Shown: positions 251-15,085 of the stretch, one piece after another
How positions within the stretch are numbered: position 1 is the first letter of the stretch
Layout of the letters: every line of letters starts with the position of its first letter
Virus record (IMG/VR): IMGVR_UViG_3300000224_000013
Location: 1 to 23,372 of that record
Direction: 5' to 3' (one strand)
Length of the DNA: 23,372 nucleotides
Origin: a virus
Translations under genes and position numbers: made by a program
Notes under the pieces: model-generated
Told to the model about the DNA's origin: nothing
Seen by the model: the letters and a program-made list of their open reading frames with translations, nothing else
The model's database searches: none

Positions 251-544
251 ATGACCCCCTACAGGGGAATTAGAGCGGCAACCCCCTACAGGGGAATTAT
301 AGAGGTGACCCCCTACAGGGGAATTATAGAGGTGACCCCCTACAGGGGAATTATAGAGGCGACTGGAAAGATTTTGTCGTGATCCCCTACAGGGGAATTA
401 TAGAGGCGACTGGAAAGATTTTGCAGCGACCCCTACCAGTGGAAATTAGAGAGGCGACTGGTGAGATTTTGTAGTGGCCCCTACCAGTGGAAATTAGAGA
501 GGCCACCAGCGAAATTAGCCGTTGCCCCTAGCGAGGGAGTTATG
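251..544 (+). repeat. Tandem array of eight hairpin-bearing units (27 then 47-48 bp)
   Basis: Eight units start at about 254, 281, 308, 335, 382, 429, 477 and 524. Spacing is 27 bp for the first three steps and 47, 47, 48 and 47 bp after that. The core is CCCCTACAGGGGAATTATAG, in which CCCC and GGGG can pair around a TACA loop. Later units read CCCCTACCAGTGGAAATTAG, and the last reads CCCTAGCGAGGGAGTTATG, which keeps a CCCT/AGGG stem by paired changes. The 20-bp insert in the longer units (gactggaaagattttg plus four bases) is nearly the same each time. From 185 to 579 there is no gene I can support. The array may be a regulatory, packaging or replication site. It is related to the dispersed motif seen elsewhere in the window. 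Confidence 0.85.
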
Positions 545-3124: not shown

Positions 3125-3256
3125 ATGACCCCACAGATGGAAAATGCAGTGGAAAGCCTTTGCATTTACCCAATGCAATTCATAAGGCTTGCTTTGATGC
3201 ACGTTGTTGACGTATCTGAGGTAGTGATAACACATAATAAAGGAGAACTACAGTGA
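3125..3256 (+). CDS. Small hypothetical protein (43 aa)
   Basis: ATG at 3125 follows AAAGGAGAAGACTA at ideal spacing, the clearest ribosome-binding site in this stretch. The frame ends TGA at 3254-3256, overlapping the next start by four bases. The peptide begins MTPQMENAVESL and has a short hydrophobic centre, too weak to call a membrane helix. Its first codons contain the CCCC..GATGGAAAA form of the dispersed motif and a CAGTGGAAA at 3147-3155. Confidence 0.6.
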   Translation: MTPQMENAVESLCIYPMQFIRLALMHVVDVSEVVITHNKGELQ

Positions 3257-3411: not shown

Positions 3412-4079
3412 TGATGAAAGCTAAACTAATCGCTTACACCCAGCCAGTGGAAAATGAGATCATAGGACTAACTGATGTCCAAGACCTGATTGCCTACTGT
3501 GCCAAGGTGTCAAACCCAAAGGGTCAGGCAGACCTATCAACGAGCGAGAGCCTGTTGAGCTACCTCATCAAGCACCAGCACTGGTCGCCGTTTGAGATGG
3601 CTACAGCTACAGTGGAAATTGAGACAACACGCGATATTGCTAGGCAGATGCTACGCCACCGATCATTTGCTTTCCAAGAGTTCAGCCAACGATACGCTGA
3701 TCCACGGGACATGGAGAATACGTTCGTTTTGCGTGAGGCTCGACTGCAAGACACAAAAAACCGTCAGAACAGCGTAGAGGTTGACAACCCAGCACTGTCT
3801 GGAGAGTGGCGGATGAGACAGCAGGATGTCATTGACGCAGCTAAGGCGCACTACAACTGGGCTATCCTTAACGGCATCGCTAAAGAGCAGGCCCGTGCAG
3901 TACTGCCAGAAGGTAACACAGTCTCTAGGCTGTACGCTCAGGGGTCTATTCGATCTTGGATACACTATGTGGCACTACGGTCAGCTAACGGCACTCAGCG
4001 TGAGCATATGGACCTAGCAGTAGAAATTGGAAAAGCGATCTCTAAGATATTTCCCATGATTGGAGAGCAGAATGACTAA
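3411..4079 (+). CDS. thyX: FAD-dependent thymidylate synthase ThyX
   Basis: The 222-residue product carries the ThyX signature RHRx7S (R82-H83-R84 ... S92, RHRSFAFQEFS). It also has the upstream HWSPFE segment (57-62) and EQARAVLP (159-166), all landmarks of the flavin-dependent enzyme. ThyX methylates dUMP to dTMP with methylenetetrahydrofolate, FAD and NADPH, and acts as a homotetramer in the cytoplasm. Length is normal for the family. Translation may begin at ATG 3411 or 3414. It overlaps the sigma-like gene by 8 nt. With NrdJ and glutaredoxin in the same arm, it shows the phage makes its own dNTPs. Two copies of the dispersed CAGTGGAAA motif lie in this gene (3445-3453 and 3610-3618). Confidence 0.95.
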   Translation: MMKAKLIAYTQPVENEIIGLTDVQDLIAYCAKVSNPKGQADLSTSESLLSYLIKHQHWSPFEMATATVEIETTRDIARQMLRHRSFAFQEFSQRYADPRDMENTFVLREARLQDTKNRQNSVEVDNPALSGEWRMRQQDVIDAAKAHYNWAILNGIAKEQARAVLPEGNTVSRLYAQGSIRSWIHYVALRSANGTQREHMDLAVEIGKAISKIFPMIGEQND

Positions 4080-4632
4080 GCTAACCACAGATGAAATCGT
4101 AACGATGTGTGAGAGGCTGGCGCGTAAGTACCGACGACCTCACATGAATGACGATCTGGTGTCGGAAGGTGTCTTGTCTATCTATGAAAGACTTGAGGTT
4201 AAACCAGATGAGTACCCTGCAAGCCTGTACAGACGTGCTAACAAGGCCATGCACGATTTTATCAATAGGAAGTCTAAAGTTGTACACATACCATACACAC
4301 GCACCTCTGAGAGCTTATCAAAGGGTGTAGGTTACAAACACGGCACATACTCTGAGAAAGGCAAAAAGGAACTGGCAAGAGCTTTGTCAGCTACCTCAGT
4401 TAACTTTGATGACACCTTCTCTCTTTACGTACAAGATTGTACTCAAAAGTATGAGACTGATGACTTCATATCAAAAGCATTTAAGTTACTTGACGACATA
4501 GATGCGGAAATCATACACAAGAGGTACTTTAATGAGATGAAACAAGAGGATGTAGCGGCAGAATGTGGTATGTCTCAACAGGCTGTATATAAGCGTGAAG
4601 TTTCTGCTTTAAATAAAATGTCACGGCTGTAA
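4072..4632 (+). CDS. Sigma-70-family-like transcription factor
   Basis: I chose ATG at 4072, with GGAG 7 bp upstream, over a TTG at 4060. The 186-residue product has a region-2-like N-terminal half: DDLVSEGVLSIYERLE at 27-42, then AMHDFINRKSKVVHIP at 59-74, which matches the 'dylRrrsrlvriP' pattern after sigma region 2.4. Its C-terminus is region-4-like, with EIIHKRYFNEMKQEDVAAEC and GMSQQAVYKRE forming a helix-turn-helix at about 157-176. No region 1.1 or clear region 3 is present, as in ECF-type factors. I infer that it redirects host RNA polymerase to phage promoters, possibly the late minus-strand genes. A non-sigma DNA-binding regulator with similar helices is the alternative. It ends just before a promoter and the control region at 4644-4821. 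Confidence 0.65.
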   Translation: MTKLTTDEIVTMCERLARKYRRPHMNDDLVSEGVLSIYERLEVKPDEYPASLYRRANKAMHDFINRKSKVVHIPYTRTSESLSKGVGYKHGTYSEKGKKELARALSATSVNFDDTFSLYVQDCTQKYETDDFISKAFKLLDDIDAEIIHKRYFNEMKQEDVAAECGMSQQAVYKREVSALNKMSRL

Positions 4633-4643
4633 CAAATCGTGAG

Positions 4644-4671
4644 TTGTTAGAACTCTAAAAAGGTCTATATA
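4644..4671 (+). promoter_or_regulatory. Promoter copy 1 (TTGTTA-N16-TATATA)
   Basis: TTGTTA at 4644-4649 and TATATA at 4666-4671 are separated by 16 bp, with AAAAAGGTC directly before the -10. The same arrangement recurs at 8550-8577, with the block AAAAAGGTCTATATA identical. It points to the primase-helicase gene about 165 bp downstream. Confidence 0.65.
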
Positions 4672-4686
4672 AGTAAGTGTAGCCCT

Positions 4687-4821
4687 CTTAAGTTACCTCT
4701 AGAGTTACGCTAGAGCTATTAAACTACTACATCAACCAATAAAAGAGTTACTCTAGAGTTACTCTGGTGTTACCCTTTTTAAGGTTGATGTAGTAGTTGT
4801 TAGACTTAAGACACCTCTAGA
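4687..4821 (+). repeat. Control or origin-like region: phased GTTAC repeats and 16-bp inverted repeat
   Basis: The non-coding stretch 4633-4836 holds several ordered elements. AGTTAC (or TGTTAC) recurs at 4691, 4703, 4746, 4757 and 4768, so neighbours are 11-12 bp apart, about one helical turn. A perfect 16-bp inverted repeat has arms AACTACTACATCAACC (4722-4737) and its complement (4783-4798), with 45 bp between that contain three of the repeats. CTTAAGNNACCTCTAGA occurs directly repeated at 4687-4703 and 4805-4821, flanking everything. This organisation resembles iteron-type origins or operator clusters. Its place upstream of primase-helicase fits either role. No initiator gene is identified. 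Confidence 0.6.
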
Positions 4822-4836
4822 TAAAGAAAGATAAAT

Positions 4837-6408
4837 ATGAGTGACAATAGTAATCTACCGTGTCCTTTTGTGTCGTGCGGCTCCTCAGATGCCTTTAGTT
4901 TTAATAGCAATGGCTATGGTAAGTGCCACTCGTGCAATACAAACTATCCATCTCGTGCAAAGACTTTTGATTGGGCCAGAGAGGAATACCCTACAATAGA
5001 AAGAGACAAACCTAAGTTTACTCCTAAAGCTATTGAGCCTTTTGTTGTGGTAGACCCCAGCAGTGGAAAGTATGAAAGTATGCGGGGTATTGATGAAGCA
5101 ATAATGACGCAATACAACGTACTAACTTTTCCAGATCGTCAGGAGTATGTGTACCCCAGCGGGGGAATTAAAGTCCGTAAGTTGCCAGACAAGGCTTTCT
5201 TTGCTAAGTCTGGGTTTAAGGCTGATGAACTGTTTGGGATGAACTTATTTACCGCTGGTTGCAGTAAGATGATAACTATCACTGAGGGTGAGTTAGATGC
5301 TCTTTCGGTGTATCAAATGGTTCAGAGTAAGTTCCCTACGCCTGTGGTGTCGTTGCCTTCTGCTACGCCCTCTAGGAAGCTGTGGGAGAATTGTGCGGAT
5401 TGGCTAAACAGTTTCGAAAAGATTGTCTTATCCGTAGATAACGATGACGCAGGTAACGCACTCGCAGACAGCGTTGCTAAGATGTTTCCTAATAAGGTCT
5501 ATCGTGTTGACCACAGACCTTACAAGGACGCTAACGAGTTCTTACAGGCGGGTAAGGGGGGTGACTTCAAGGGGGCTTGGTGGGCAGCTAAGAAGTACAC
5601 ACCTGAGAATGTTCTAAATGGTGTAGATGATTTCTTGTCGTTATATCAGAACGCACCAGAGCATGAATACGTGCCTACAGGGATTGAAGCACTAGACGCT
5701 AAAATATTGGGTCTAATGCAAGCGCACTTCACAGTGATTAAAGCACCCACTGGGATAGGCAAGACGGAGATTATGAGGTACTTGGAATACAACATGCTGC
5801 AACGTAAAGTGCCAATCGCTGCAATGCACGTAGAGGAAACCAAGCTACGCTCCCTGCTTGGTCTTGTATCTTATGAGTGTAATGACAACCTGACACGCAG
5901 GGATTTGATTGAACAGAAGGGGGCAAACGAACAAGTGGTTTCTGCCATTGAGAGTCTCAACAAAGACGAACTTTATTACCAGTTCTTCATGGGTGATGGT
6001 CAAGGTTCTGATGAGTTGTGCGACCAGATCAGATACTTCAGTCAAGCCTGTGGTTGTAAGTTTGTATTCTTTGAGCCTATCCAAGACGTAGTAGTAGGAT
6101 CATCTGCGGAAAGTAAGGAGGAAATGCTTGCTGATCTATCTATTCGACTATCTAAGTTGGCAGCAGAACTTAATGTGGGTATCGTTACTATCGCCCACAC
6201 TAATGATGATGGAGACCCGAAGTACTGCAAGATGATTGGACAACGAGCTTCTGTCGTTATTGACTTATCACGGGAGAAAGAAGCAGATAACTTAGAAGAA
6301 CGGAACACGACACACATCCGCGTTGAGAAGAACCGACCATGCTCAGAAGAGGGCAATGCAGGTACAATGCGTTTTAACTTAGATACGTTTACATTAAGGG
6401 AAGTATGA
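4837..6408 (+). CDS. T7 gp4-like primase-helicase
   Basis: The 523-residue product has all three parts of T7-type primase-helicase. An N-terminal zinc ribbon uses C9, C14, C30 and C33. A TOPRIM primase core has ITITEGELDAL (E150) and SVDNDDAG (D201, D203). The C-terminal RecA/DnaB-like helicase has Walker A APTGIGKT (303-310) and a later IAHTNDDGDPK segment. It unwinds duplex DNA 5' to 3' on the lagging strand and makes RNA primers for the phage polymerase. Length is close to T7 gp4 (566 aa). It starts at ATG 4837 after AAAGAAAGATAAAT, a weak Shine-Dalgarno, downstream of the promoter and repeats at 4644-4821. It contains one CAGTGGAAA (5061-5069) and one GGGGAATTA form (5153-5172) of the dispersed motif. 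Confidence 0.93.
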   Translation: MSDNSNLPCPFVSCGSSDAFSFNSNGYGKCHSCNTNYPSRAKTFDWAREEYPTIERDKPKFTPKAIEPFVVVDPSSGKYESMRGIDEAIMTQYNVLTFPDRQEYVYPSGGIKVRKLPDKAFFAKSGFKADELFGMNLFTAGCSKMITITEGELDALSVYQMVQSKFPTPVVSLPSATPSRKLWENCADWLNSFEKIVLSVDNDDAGNALADSVAKMFPNKVYRVDHRPYKDANEFLQAGKGGDFKGAWWAAKKYTPENVLNGVDDFLSLYQNAPEHEYVPTGIEALDAKILGLMQAHFTVIKAPTGIGKTEIMRYLEYNMLQRKVPIAAMHVEETKLRSLLGLVSYECNDNLTRRDLIEQKGANEQVVSAIESLNKDELYYQFFMGDGQGSDELCDQIRYFSQACGCKFVFFEPIQDVVVGSSAESKEEMLADLSIRLSKLAAELNVGIVTIAHTNDDGDPKYCKMIGQRASVVIDLSREKEADNLEERNTTHIRVEKNRPCSEEGNAGTMRFNLDTFTLREV

Positions 6409-11333: not shown

Positions 11334-12105
11334 AACAGTAGTGGTCTTTAGCTGCGCTCACGTAGACCCCTCAGTGGGAAATGAGCGTTTTAACTGGTTG
11401 GGTGAGTTCTTGTATGACCTCAAGCCTGATTATGTTGTTGACCTTGGGGATGGCGCTGATATGCGGTCATTAAATACATTTGACACTCGTTACCCAGAGG
11501 CAATCGTTAGCCAGAACTATGAGGCTGACATCGAACACTACAATGACGCGCAAGAGCGCCTACGGTGGAAGTTTCGTCACCACAAGCGAAAACGACCAAG
11601 TTTCTTTGGGTTTGAGGGGAACCATGAGCATAGAATTAAAAAAGCTATCAAGACAGACCCAAGACTTGAGGGATCAAAATACGGGATTTCCTTCGGGCAT
11701 CTTCAAACCAAAAGCTGGTTCGACGAGTACCACGAATACGAAAATGGCGCCCCCGCCATCTTTGATTACGATGGGGTATCTTATGCTCACTTCTTTAGTA
11801 GTGGTAACTTTGGGTCAGCTATGTCTGGTCTTCATCATGCTAACGGGCTACTCGCTCACCGCCACCACAGTTCTACTTGTGGTCACAGTCATAAACGTGA
11901 TCTTAAGTTTAAAGATTCTTCGCACCCTAACGGGACTATTGGCCTTGTCGCGGGCTGTTACAAAGGGGCAGAAGAAGGGTGGGCAGGGCAAGCCAATCGT
12001 GAGTGGTGGTCAGGTGTTGTAGTTAAGCGGGAGGTATCTAACGGTATGTATGAGCCGCAGTTTATCTCACAGGCGGCACTAAGGGGGATGTATGGGGAAA
12101 CGTAG
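11326..12105 (+). CDS. Calcineurin-like metallophosphoesterase
   Basis: The 259-residue product has the metallophosphoesterase motif series: SCAH at 9-12, DLGDGAD at 39-45 (GD 41-42), FEGNHEHR at 96-103 (GNHE 98-101), then GHSHK at 186-190. These residues bind the two metal ions in the family. The usual first motif is D-x-H; here the Asp position is Cys10, which may change metal binding. Substrate is unknown; phage relatives include phosphatases, 2',3'-cyclic phosphodiesterases and Mre11-like nucleases. AAAATGGGTAAA gives the start at 11326. The gene overlaps the methyltransferase by 14 nt. Dense His residues at 169-189 (LHHANGLLAHRHHSSTCGHSH) are typical of the third metal motif region. Confidence 0.85.
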   Translation: MGKTVVVFSCAHVDPSVGNERFNWLGEFLYDLKPDYVVDLGDGADMRSLNTFDTRYPEAIVSQNYEADIEHYNDAQERLRWKFRHHKRKRPSFFGFEGNHEHRIKKAIKTDPRLEGSKYGISFGHLQTKSWFDEYHEYENGAPAIFDYDGVSYAHFFSSGNFGSAMSGLHHANGLLAHRHHSSTCGHSHKRDLKFKDSSHPNGTIGLVAGCYKGAEEGWAGQANREWWSGVVVKREVSNGMYEPQFISQAALRGMYGET

Positions 12106-13181: not shown

Positions 13182-15085
13182 GCAACAACTATTTACCAAC
13201 AGACTACCAGACATTCATTGCTACCTCACGGTATGCACGGTGGTTGGATGATGAAGGCCGACGAGAGAATTGGGGCGAGACAGTAGGTCGCTACATGGAC
13301 AATGTGGTTAAACCTGTTGCTGGAGACGACAGCTACACTAAGTCTATCGAAGAAGCTATCTTGAACCTTGAGGTTATGCCTTCGATGCGAGCTTTGATGA
13401 CTGCTGGACCAGCCCTCTCCCGTGACAATACTGCTGGTTACAACTGCAGTTACCTGCCAGTAGATGACCCAAAGTCCTTCGATGAAGCCATGTTTATCCT
13501 TCTTTGTGGTACAGGGGTGGGCTTCTCAGTAGAACGTCAGTACGTTAAGAAGCTGCCAGATGTGCCAGACAACCTGTTCCAGAGTGATACGACAGTGATC
13601 GTAAAGGATAGTAAAGAGGGTTGGGCTAAATCACTACGTCAGGTTATCGCCCTGCTATACAGTGGTGAAATTCCTAAGTGGGATGTGTCTAAGGTTCGTC
13701 CAGCAGGGTCTAAACTAAAGACGTTTGGTGGTCGTGCATCAGGTCCAGCACCTCTTGTTGACCTGTTCAGCTTTGTCATCCGTGTGTTTGCTAATGCTAA
13801 AGGTCGTAAACTCTCCTCTATTGAGTGCCACGACATCATGTGTAAGATTGGTGAAGTTGTGGTTGTCGGGGGTGTTCGTCGCTCTGCTATGATCTCTCTG
13901 AGCAACTTGAGTGATGACCGTATGCGTCATGCTAAGAGTGGTGCATGGTGGGAGAACGATCCACAACGGGCGTTGGCTAACAACTCTGTGAGCTACACAG
14001 AAAAACCTGATGCTGTGTCGTTTATGCGGGAGTGGATGTCTCTGGTAGAGAGTGGCTCAGGGGAACGTGGTGTCTTCAACCGTGAGGCTTCTGTAGCACA
14101 AGCTAAGAAGAATGGTCGTCGTGACCCCAATTTTGAGTTCGGGACGAATCCTTGCAGCGAAATTATCCTGCGTCCGTATCAATTCTGCAACTTAACGGAG
14201 GTAGTGGTACGTACATCAGACACTGTGGAATCTCTTGAACGCAAAGTTCGTATGGCAACTATTTTGGGAACTGTACAATCTTCCTACACAAAGTTTCCCT
14301 ATCTACGGAAAGTGTGGACAGACAACACAGAAGCAGAAAGATTGCTGGGAGTGTCTCTCACGGGCATCATGGATAACCCACTGACCACCACAAAGAACGC
14401 TGGTTTGGAGAAAACACTTGAACGGCTCAAGGAGGTTGCTGTTGCTACTAACGCTGAGTGGGCTGAACGACTTGGTATTCCTGTGTCTACTGCTATTACT
14501 TGTGTTAAGCCTTCGGGGACTGTCTCTCAACTCGTGGACAGCGCTTCTGGTATTCATGCCCGTCATAGCCCATACTACATCCGAACTGTTCGCGGTGATA
14601 ACAAAGACCCACTGACACAGTTTATGAAGGATCAAGGTATCCCTAGTGAACCTGACGTGATGAAGCCAGATGCTACGACAGTGTTTAGTTTCCCAATGAA
14701 GGCTCCAGAAGGGGCTATTACTACGTCAGACTTGACAGCTATCGAACAACTGGAGATGTGGTTGGCCTATCAACGATCATGGTGTGAACACAAGCCCTCC
14801 GTGACAATTAACGTAAAGGGGGATGAGTGGTTTGAGGTGGGTGCTTTTGTCTACAAGCACTTCGATGAGATGTCTGGTGTGTCGTTCCTACCGTACAACG
14901 AGCATACGTACCAACAGGCTCCTTATCAGGAGGTAGGCAAGTTTGACTACGAGGCGCTTCTGTCTTGTATGCCTACGGACATTGACTGGAGTAAGCTATC
15001 GGACTATGAAGCAGAAGACAACACAGCAGGCAGTCAGACATTAGCTTGTTCTGGCGATAGCTGTGAGATTGTTGACTTGACCTAA
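13178..15085 (+). CDS. nrdJ: Adenosylcobalamin-dependent (class II) ribonucleoside-triphosphate reductase
   Basis: The 635-residue product has the class II monomeric reductase residues in the right order: C90 (GYNCSYLPV), GTGVGFSVE at 111-119, FGTNPCSEIILRP with N324, C326 and E328, and C337 (QFCNLTE). The spacing equals that of Lactobacillus leichmannii RTPR (C119, N406, C408, E410, C419). The C-terminal pair C624/C629 (ACSGDSCE) also has the five-residue spacing of the RTPR shuttle cysteines. The enzyme reduces NTPs to dNTPs with a thiyl radical made by coenzyme B12, so it needs no oxygen or second subunit. It is shorter than RTPR (739). It overlaps the DUF1127 gene by ATGA. Confidence 0.95.
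   Translation: MSNNYLPTDYQTFIATSRYARWLDDEGRRENWGETVGRYMDNVVKPVAGDDSYTKSIEEAILNLEVMPSMRALMTAGPALSRDNTAGYNCSYLPVDDPKSFDEAMFILLCGTGVGFSVERQYVKKLPDVPDNLFQSDTTVIVKDSKEGWAKSLRQVIALLYSGEIPKWDVSKVRPAGSKLKTFGGRASGPAPLVDLFSFVIRVFANAKGRKLSSIECHDIMCKIGEVVVVGGVRRSAMISLSNLSDDRMRHAKSGAWWENDPQRALANNSVSYTEKPDAVSFMREWMSLVESGSGERGVFNREASVAQAKKNGRRDPNFEFGTNPCSEIILRPYQFCNLTEVVVRTSDTVESLERKVRMATILGTVQSSYTKFPYLRKVWTDNTEAERLLGVSLTGIMDNPLTTTKNAGLEKTLERLKEVAVATNAEWAERLGIPVSTAITCVKPSGTVSQLVDSASGIHARHSPYYIRTVRGDNKDPLTQFMKDQGIPSEPDVMKPDATTVFSFPMKAPEGAITTSDLTAIEQLEMWLAYQRSWCEHKPSVTINVKGDEWFEVGAFVYKHFDEMSGVSFLPYNEHTYQQAPYQEVGKFDYEALLSCMPTDIDWSKLSDYEAEDNTAGSQTLACSGDSCEIVDLT

Follow-up and report, generated by a model that had tools for sequence, protein, structure and literature searches.

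A one-directional family of 18-bp sites in the early genes of CRP-6-type roseophages: a possible operator/stoperator-like network with a sigma-like candidate binder

The early genes of a virus contig related to Roseobacter phage CRP-6 carry an asymmetric 18-bp site in many copies, all oriented with transcription, which form an array ahead of the early module, extend into a predicted early promoter and recur inside the genes downstream. This site family and its association with a gene for a sigma-like protein are well supported. For its function we put forward, tentatively and at somewhat less than an even chance, an operator/stoperator-like network that would be bound by the sigma-like protein and would regulate, probably shutting off, early transcription.

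The window analysed here (23,372 nucleotides) is a 23-kb virus record in full, itself a fragment, with early genes on the + strand and structural genes on the − strand. Its primase-helicase is 71% identical to that of CRP-6 and 55% identical to that of the Cobavirinae phage ICBM2, and its gene layout is common to CRP-6; judged by sequence, the contig is a member of the CRP-6-type roseophages. CRP-6 lacks an annotated integrase. The mosaic nature of its genome and the ubiquity of its group in the ocean have been described (PMC6918029); the words 'promoter', 'repeat' and 'sigma' are absent from the main text of the paper describing it. A scan of viral contigs for the exact 20-mer was empty because the units vary in sequence, and megablast against named phages also gave no match. 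Given this variation, a protein-based search was required to reach relatives. Searching with the primase gathered about 130 related loci, and a second search with the sigma-like protein gave 56 further loci, some of which overlap earlier contigs (L136 with L010).

All eight units of the array reported in the initial annotation at 251–544 were recovered, with CCCCTACAGGGGAATTA starting at 256, 283, 310, 337 and 384, CCCCTACCAGTGGAAATTA at 430 and 478, and CCCTAGCGAGGGAGTTATG at 526. Expressed as 18-mers on the + strand, units 1–5 (GGGGAATTA class) span 255–400, start at 255, 282, 309, 336 and 383 and include a 27-bp tandem duplication block; units 6–7 (GTGGAAATT class) span 430–495 (430–447 and 478–495), and unit 8 occupies 525–542, the successive spacings being 27, 27, 27, 47, 47, 48 and 47. 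The motif excess in the window alone is not due to chance: allowing up to two mismatches, CAGTGGAAATTA has 11 occurrences where 2.4 are expected, and allowing up to three, the 19-mer CCCCTACCAGTGGAAATTA has two where 0 are expected. Direct repeats of another kind (CCTGATCATCACCG, 2.4 copies, 180–221) lie just upstream of the array.

The array is a recurrent feature of the group, lying between the late module and the early one. In CRP-6 the homologous position, immediately ahead of the first early gene, is occupied by five units of CCCCTCCGATGGAAAA type, and about 20 further contigs found through the primase have arrays of three to seven units in the same place. An assembly artefact was rejected, since arrays with different unit sequences stand at this position in CRP-6 and in the close relative L010, whose primase is 97% identical. 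Close relatives with dispersed copies and no array, which would have spoken against the initial annotation, did not appear, and 56 sigma-bearing loci have arrays. CRP-6 also has several copies of a second repeat, of TTGCARRAATGTCAC type, upstream of its array (L005, 44504–44732), which was not seen in the window. A distant relative, L158, has a sigma-like gene and an array of shifted subtype (CCCCCACGAGGGAATTGTTCG; 715–833), and dispersed copies beyond this array were not found. L158 shows that the L157 lineage does have an array; a different motif considered in L157 and L152 proved to consist of coding repeats or two-copy elements only. Since the L157/L158 lineage has kept the array with few dispersed copies, dispersed sites are not essential everywhere.

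The earlier proposal that the array and the scattered copies form one family is borne out by an 18-bp asymmetric motif, ACCCY-N-M-C-R-R-K-GGAA-W-W-W, shared across the roughly 130 loci. A two-class weight matrix of 18 positions, applied to these loci at a score of 12 or more, gave 650 matches in the sense orientation of the early genes versus 4 antisense (610 on the + strand once overlapping one-base shifts, which the 650 include, are merged); the reversed control gave 5 and the complemented control 0. The second set of 56 loci, some overlapping contigs of the first, gave 394 sense matches versus 1 antisense. These loci are related and the counts are not independent events; clustering reduced the dispersed sites to 61 groups. 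In the window all 17 copies at this score are on the + strand and none on the −; other loci, mostly fragments, hold up to 16, and the complete CRP-6 genome 9. Whole contigs show the same near-total single orientation, with isolated matches in late genes, and four motif-less Cobavirinae (ICBM2, CRP-5, CRP-4 and T5S1) gave no matches. Within the motif GGAAW is nearly invariant, and the variation around it fits two site subtypes, TGGAAA and GGGAAT.

Sites occur at about 0.2–1 per kb over some 9 kb downstream of the arrays, and none were found in up to 4 kb upstream of them. This distribution bears on the suggestion that the array marks a genome end or serves replication or packaging. Its location between the modules is where Cobavirinae termini are annotated (ICBM2), which would suit such a signal; against it, the sites track early transcription and occur only in the early-gene orientation, the contigs run unbroken through the array on both sides, and the motif matches nowhere in the ICBM2 genome or its terminal repeats. 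We therefore regard a replication, packaging or end signal as very improbable. A separate long-stem hairpin (ACTACTACATCAACC / GGTTGATGTAGTAGT) around GTTACTCT repeats lies between the sigma-like gene and the primase gene (window 4633–4836; z −6.2). It is 99% conserved in L010, which has a second, inverted copy at 3492–3652, and is a candidate replication origin or mobile hairpin.

Most of the dispersed copies lie within early genes and not ahead of them, and several coincide in part with a ribosome-binding site or start codon. On the + strand of the window they comprise a copy at 759–776, upstream of the gene at 816; one at 1974–1991 (score 17.7); one directly behind an ATG at 3128–3145 (19.7); two within thyX, at 3438–3455 (21.6) and, more weakly, 3603–3620 (12.2); two within the primase-helicase gene, at residue 77 (5054–5071; 25.8) and residue 110 (5153–5170, codons PSGGIK; 25.3); and weak copies at 11366–11383 (13.3) and in the ribonucleotide reductase gene at 14793–14810 (12.8). 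The second primase copy is the one noticed at the outset as ACCCCAGCGGGGGAATTAAA at 5153–5172, and it is indeed a member of the same family.

Selection on these in-gene copies is evident from their excess over synonymous-codon shuffles: ORFs of at least 100 aa contain 447 matches, versus 58.7 ± 7.0 (maximum 75) in 50 shuffles, an enrichment of about eightfold that holds in every frame, with 2 matches antisense. Coding constraint alone is thereby ruled out as their origin, and the motif must have been selected as nucleic acid. Its codons go some way towards favouring the copy at primase residue 110, which 152 of 169 genes contain; motif-less relatives have other codons or residues there. A second primase site is found at 41, 54, 55 or 77, positions that almost exclude one another, a pattern suggesting that sites turn over while a need for them persists. 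The idea that the array was the source of the scattered copies did not hold up, since those within genes are a product of codon choice in coding sequence that is conserved.

The units had been described as hairpins with a paired change from CCCC/GGGG to CCCT/AGGG stems; that change is literally present in the window, and the family shows no covariation to go with it. Across 179 distinct 18-mers the stem is neither maintained nor covarying: the −8/−1 pair is formed in 46 cases versus 45 expected under column independence and is broken in three quarters of units, the −7/−2 pair is formed in 102 versus 107 expected, and most single units fold no better than shuffles. The strongest mutual-information coupling, −1/+4 (T..A or G..T around GGAA), was considered as a pair closing a GGAA tetraloop; the adjacent pair −2/+5 is uncoupled, and the two site subtypes are the better reading. 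Although a short C/G hairpin can be sketched for each unit, as for N4 early promoters, the units differ from these in that the stem is not conserved, and no phage RNA polymerase was noticed in the window. A site in early mRNA for a phage or host RNA-binding protein would agree with the constant sense-strand orientation and with the copies on ribosome-binding sites and start codons. We nevertheless think an RNA role improbable, given the absence of conserved structure or an Rfam match and the fact that the upstream and promoter-spacer units are not transcribed from the predicted promoter.

That promoter ties the array to early transcription. In the window it reads TTGCCC (522–527)-N17-TACGGT (545–550) on the + strand, and relatives have the same architecture with the consensus TTGACC-N17-TANGGT, a predicted host-type promoter whose spacer is the motif. 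The last array unit overlaps the −35 element and fills the 17-bp spacer in a fixed register: of 42 units preceded by TTG, 28 have TANNNT at the distance of a −10 element, versus 9 of 683 other units. The view of the array as a main cluster of presumed binding sites, connected with early transcription, is supported. Just past the −10 element most relatives (L087, L099, L101, L108 and others) have GATTC, a GANTC site and as such a target of the alphaproteobacterial CcrM methylase; it is absent in the window.

A promoter-spacer site would also suit the main rival to repression, in which the sites load a factor that promotes elongation. Polymerase would be engaged at the spacer site by the sigma-like protein, or by some other factor of the phage, and re-loading or polymerase pausing along the operon would keep the long early unit transcribed. 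The lambda Q site lies between the −35 and −10 elements and RfaH acts at ops; both elements are orientation-dependent, as here, and the Q site is likewise in a promoter spacer. The strict orientation with transcription, the spread of sites across about 9 kb of early genes and a candidate protein of RNA-polymerase-binding type all fit this explanation. The multi-unit cluster upstream, outside the promoter's transcript, is unexpected under it, and Q and ops have single or few sites, unlike the arrays and many in-gene copies here; we know of neither using a dozen in-gene copies. On balance we consider a positive elongation role unlikely. Considered as a whole, the orientation of the sites, the unit in the promoter spacer, the cluster ahead of it and the copies within genes are best matched by an operator plus stoperator network.

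The candidate binder is encoded at 4072–4632 (+) and consists of a sigma-2 domain, a short linker and a sigma-4 domain. Pfam identifies region 4 (E 7.5e-7) and, weakly, region 2 (0.008); the family profile aligns along residues 41–252 of the Staphylococcus aureus sigma factor 8x6g_H (E 2.3e-11); and the sigma-4 domain is matched in structure by region 4 of E. coli sigma-E on its −35 DNA (2h27), with Z 10.2 and rmsd 2.4 over 65 residues. By sequence and fold the product is thus assigned to the sigma-70 family. An L5-type repressor was not among the matches listed in the fold comparison, which has no bearing either way.

Further evidence for a connection between protein and sites is their co-occurrence. 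In intact intervals from array to primase the sigma-like gene is present in 40 of 40, as is the primase, ThyX in 39 of 40, and no other ORF family in all 40; some of these loci are one contig fetched twice (e.g. L010 and L136), so that distinct genomes are somewhat fewer. The sigma-like gene was not found in eight motif-less genomes or contigs (L006–L009, L123–L125 and L130), and ICBM2, CRP-5, CRP-4 and T5S1 have primase homologues with no sigma-like gene detected by blast or iterated profile. L123, L124, L125 and L130 nest within a motif-bearing primase clade (support 100/99) and have neither a sigma-like gene in the stretch examined nor the motif, even within the primase, a joint absence that counts as one event. 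Motif-bearing loci without a blast-detected sigma-like gene have short upstream stretches, three of them with the 3' part of the gene at the contig edge, and L053 and L152, which have the gene and few sites, are short contigs. The co-occurrence may reflect a single shared lineage. Near thyX, L123 (2734–3678) and L124 (21–458), both with a CRP-6-like primase and no motif, have a tyrosine-integrase-like gene, which suggests a temperate branch.

The same protein raises the alternative that a phage sigma holoenzyme recognises the motif as its promoter or −35 element, which would give many middle promoters. In support are the strict association with a sigma-family protein, the match of its sigma-4 domain to sigma-E region 4 on DNA, and the motif core GGAAW, which resembles ECF −35 elements such as the GGAAC core of sigma-E. 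The combination of sigma-2 and sigma-4 is likewise that of ECF sigma factors such as E. coli sigma-E and alphaproteobacterial EcfG. In contrast to ECF-type promoters, the dispersed sites have no −10 element and lie mostly within genes rather than ahead of them. A search of 45–55 nt on either side of the 61 independent dispersed sites revealed no further conserved element at constant spacing, and the motif itself comprises two blocks one helical turn apart, the C block upstream, which do not form a −35/−10 pair. We rate this alternative as quite improbable.

We instead favour, with the reserve stated at the outset, a network in which the array would serve the early promoter as its operator region, with the scattered copies repeating this asymmetric DNA site in one orientation down the early transcription unit. 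Host RNA polymerase would begin early transcription at TTGACC-N17-TANGGT right after infection, and an early gene of the same unit would yield the sigma-2/sigma-4 protein. This protein would bind, presumably as duplex DNA, the promoter-spacer site, the upstream cluster and the sites inside early genes, where it would block new initiation and halt or mark elongating polymerases. Early transcription would thereby be shut down in favour of late genes, as with the operators and stoperators of mycobacteriophage L5. Sigma factors normally bind DNA within the holoenzyme, which counts against the sigma-like protein as binder. That a phage sigma-factor homologue became a sequence-specific elongation-control protein, reading an asymmetric site repeated in early genes, is possible, if doubtful.

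The stoperator literature found concerns mainly phages of actinobacteria, the characterised systems being those of temperate mycobacteriophages. The L5 repressor reads its asymmetric site as a monomer, by means of two DNA-binding domains; one copy of the site lies in the early promoter and others along transcription units, and reversal of the site abolishes its effect (PMC9283540, PMC6550527). The present sites resemble those of cluster A mycobacteriophages (L5, TipsytheTRex) in being many, asymmetric and in one orientation with transcription, with a copy at the early promoter and the others spread over transcription units, and the candidate binder is again a small two-domain DNA-binding protein. 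The site length differs (18 bp versus 13 bp). L5-type genomes have 20–30 sites each; the 23-kb window, a fragment, has 17 and complete CRP-6 has 9. Unlike in the L5 system, several units stand in tandem ahead of the promoter and within it, the dispersed copies are mostly in genes rather than in short intergenic spaces, the sites are confined to early genes, and the candidate binder is a sigma-2/sigma-4 protein. CRP-6 also differs in having no annotated integrase, so that one would not expect repression in a lysogen of the kind seen with L5, and the host here is a marine alphaproteobacterium. We propose that the system works like a stoperator system in function and do not file it as a member, as site placement differs.

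If a sigma-factor homologue does read sites within early genes, the coding sequences themselves would hold the off switch for the early programme of a lytic phage, or else the signal for re-loading, and a stoperator-like arrangement would now be placed in abundant marine roseobacter phages of CRP-6 type without an annotated integrase (PMC6918029). With sites mostly in coding sequence and one candidate binder, a precise and cheap test is possible, and the system offers a handle on how CRP-6-type phages may time early and late transcription.
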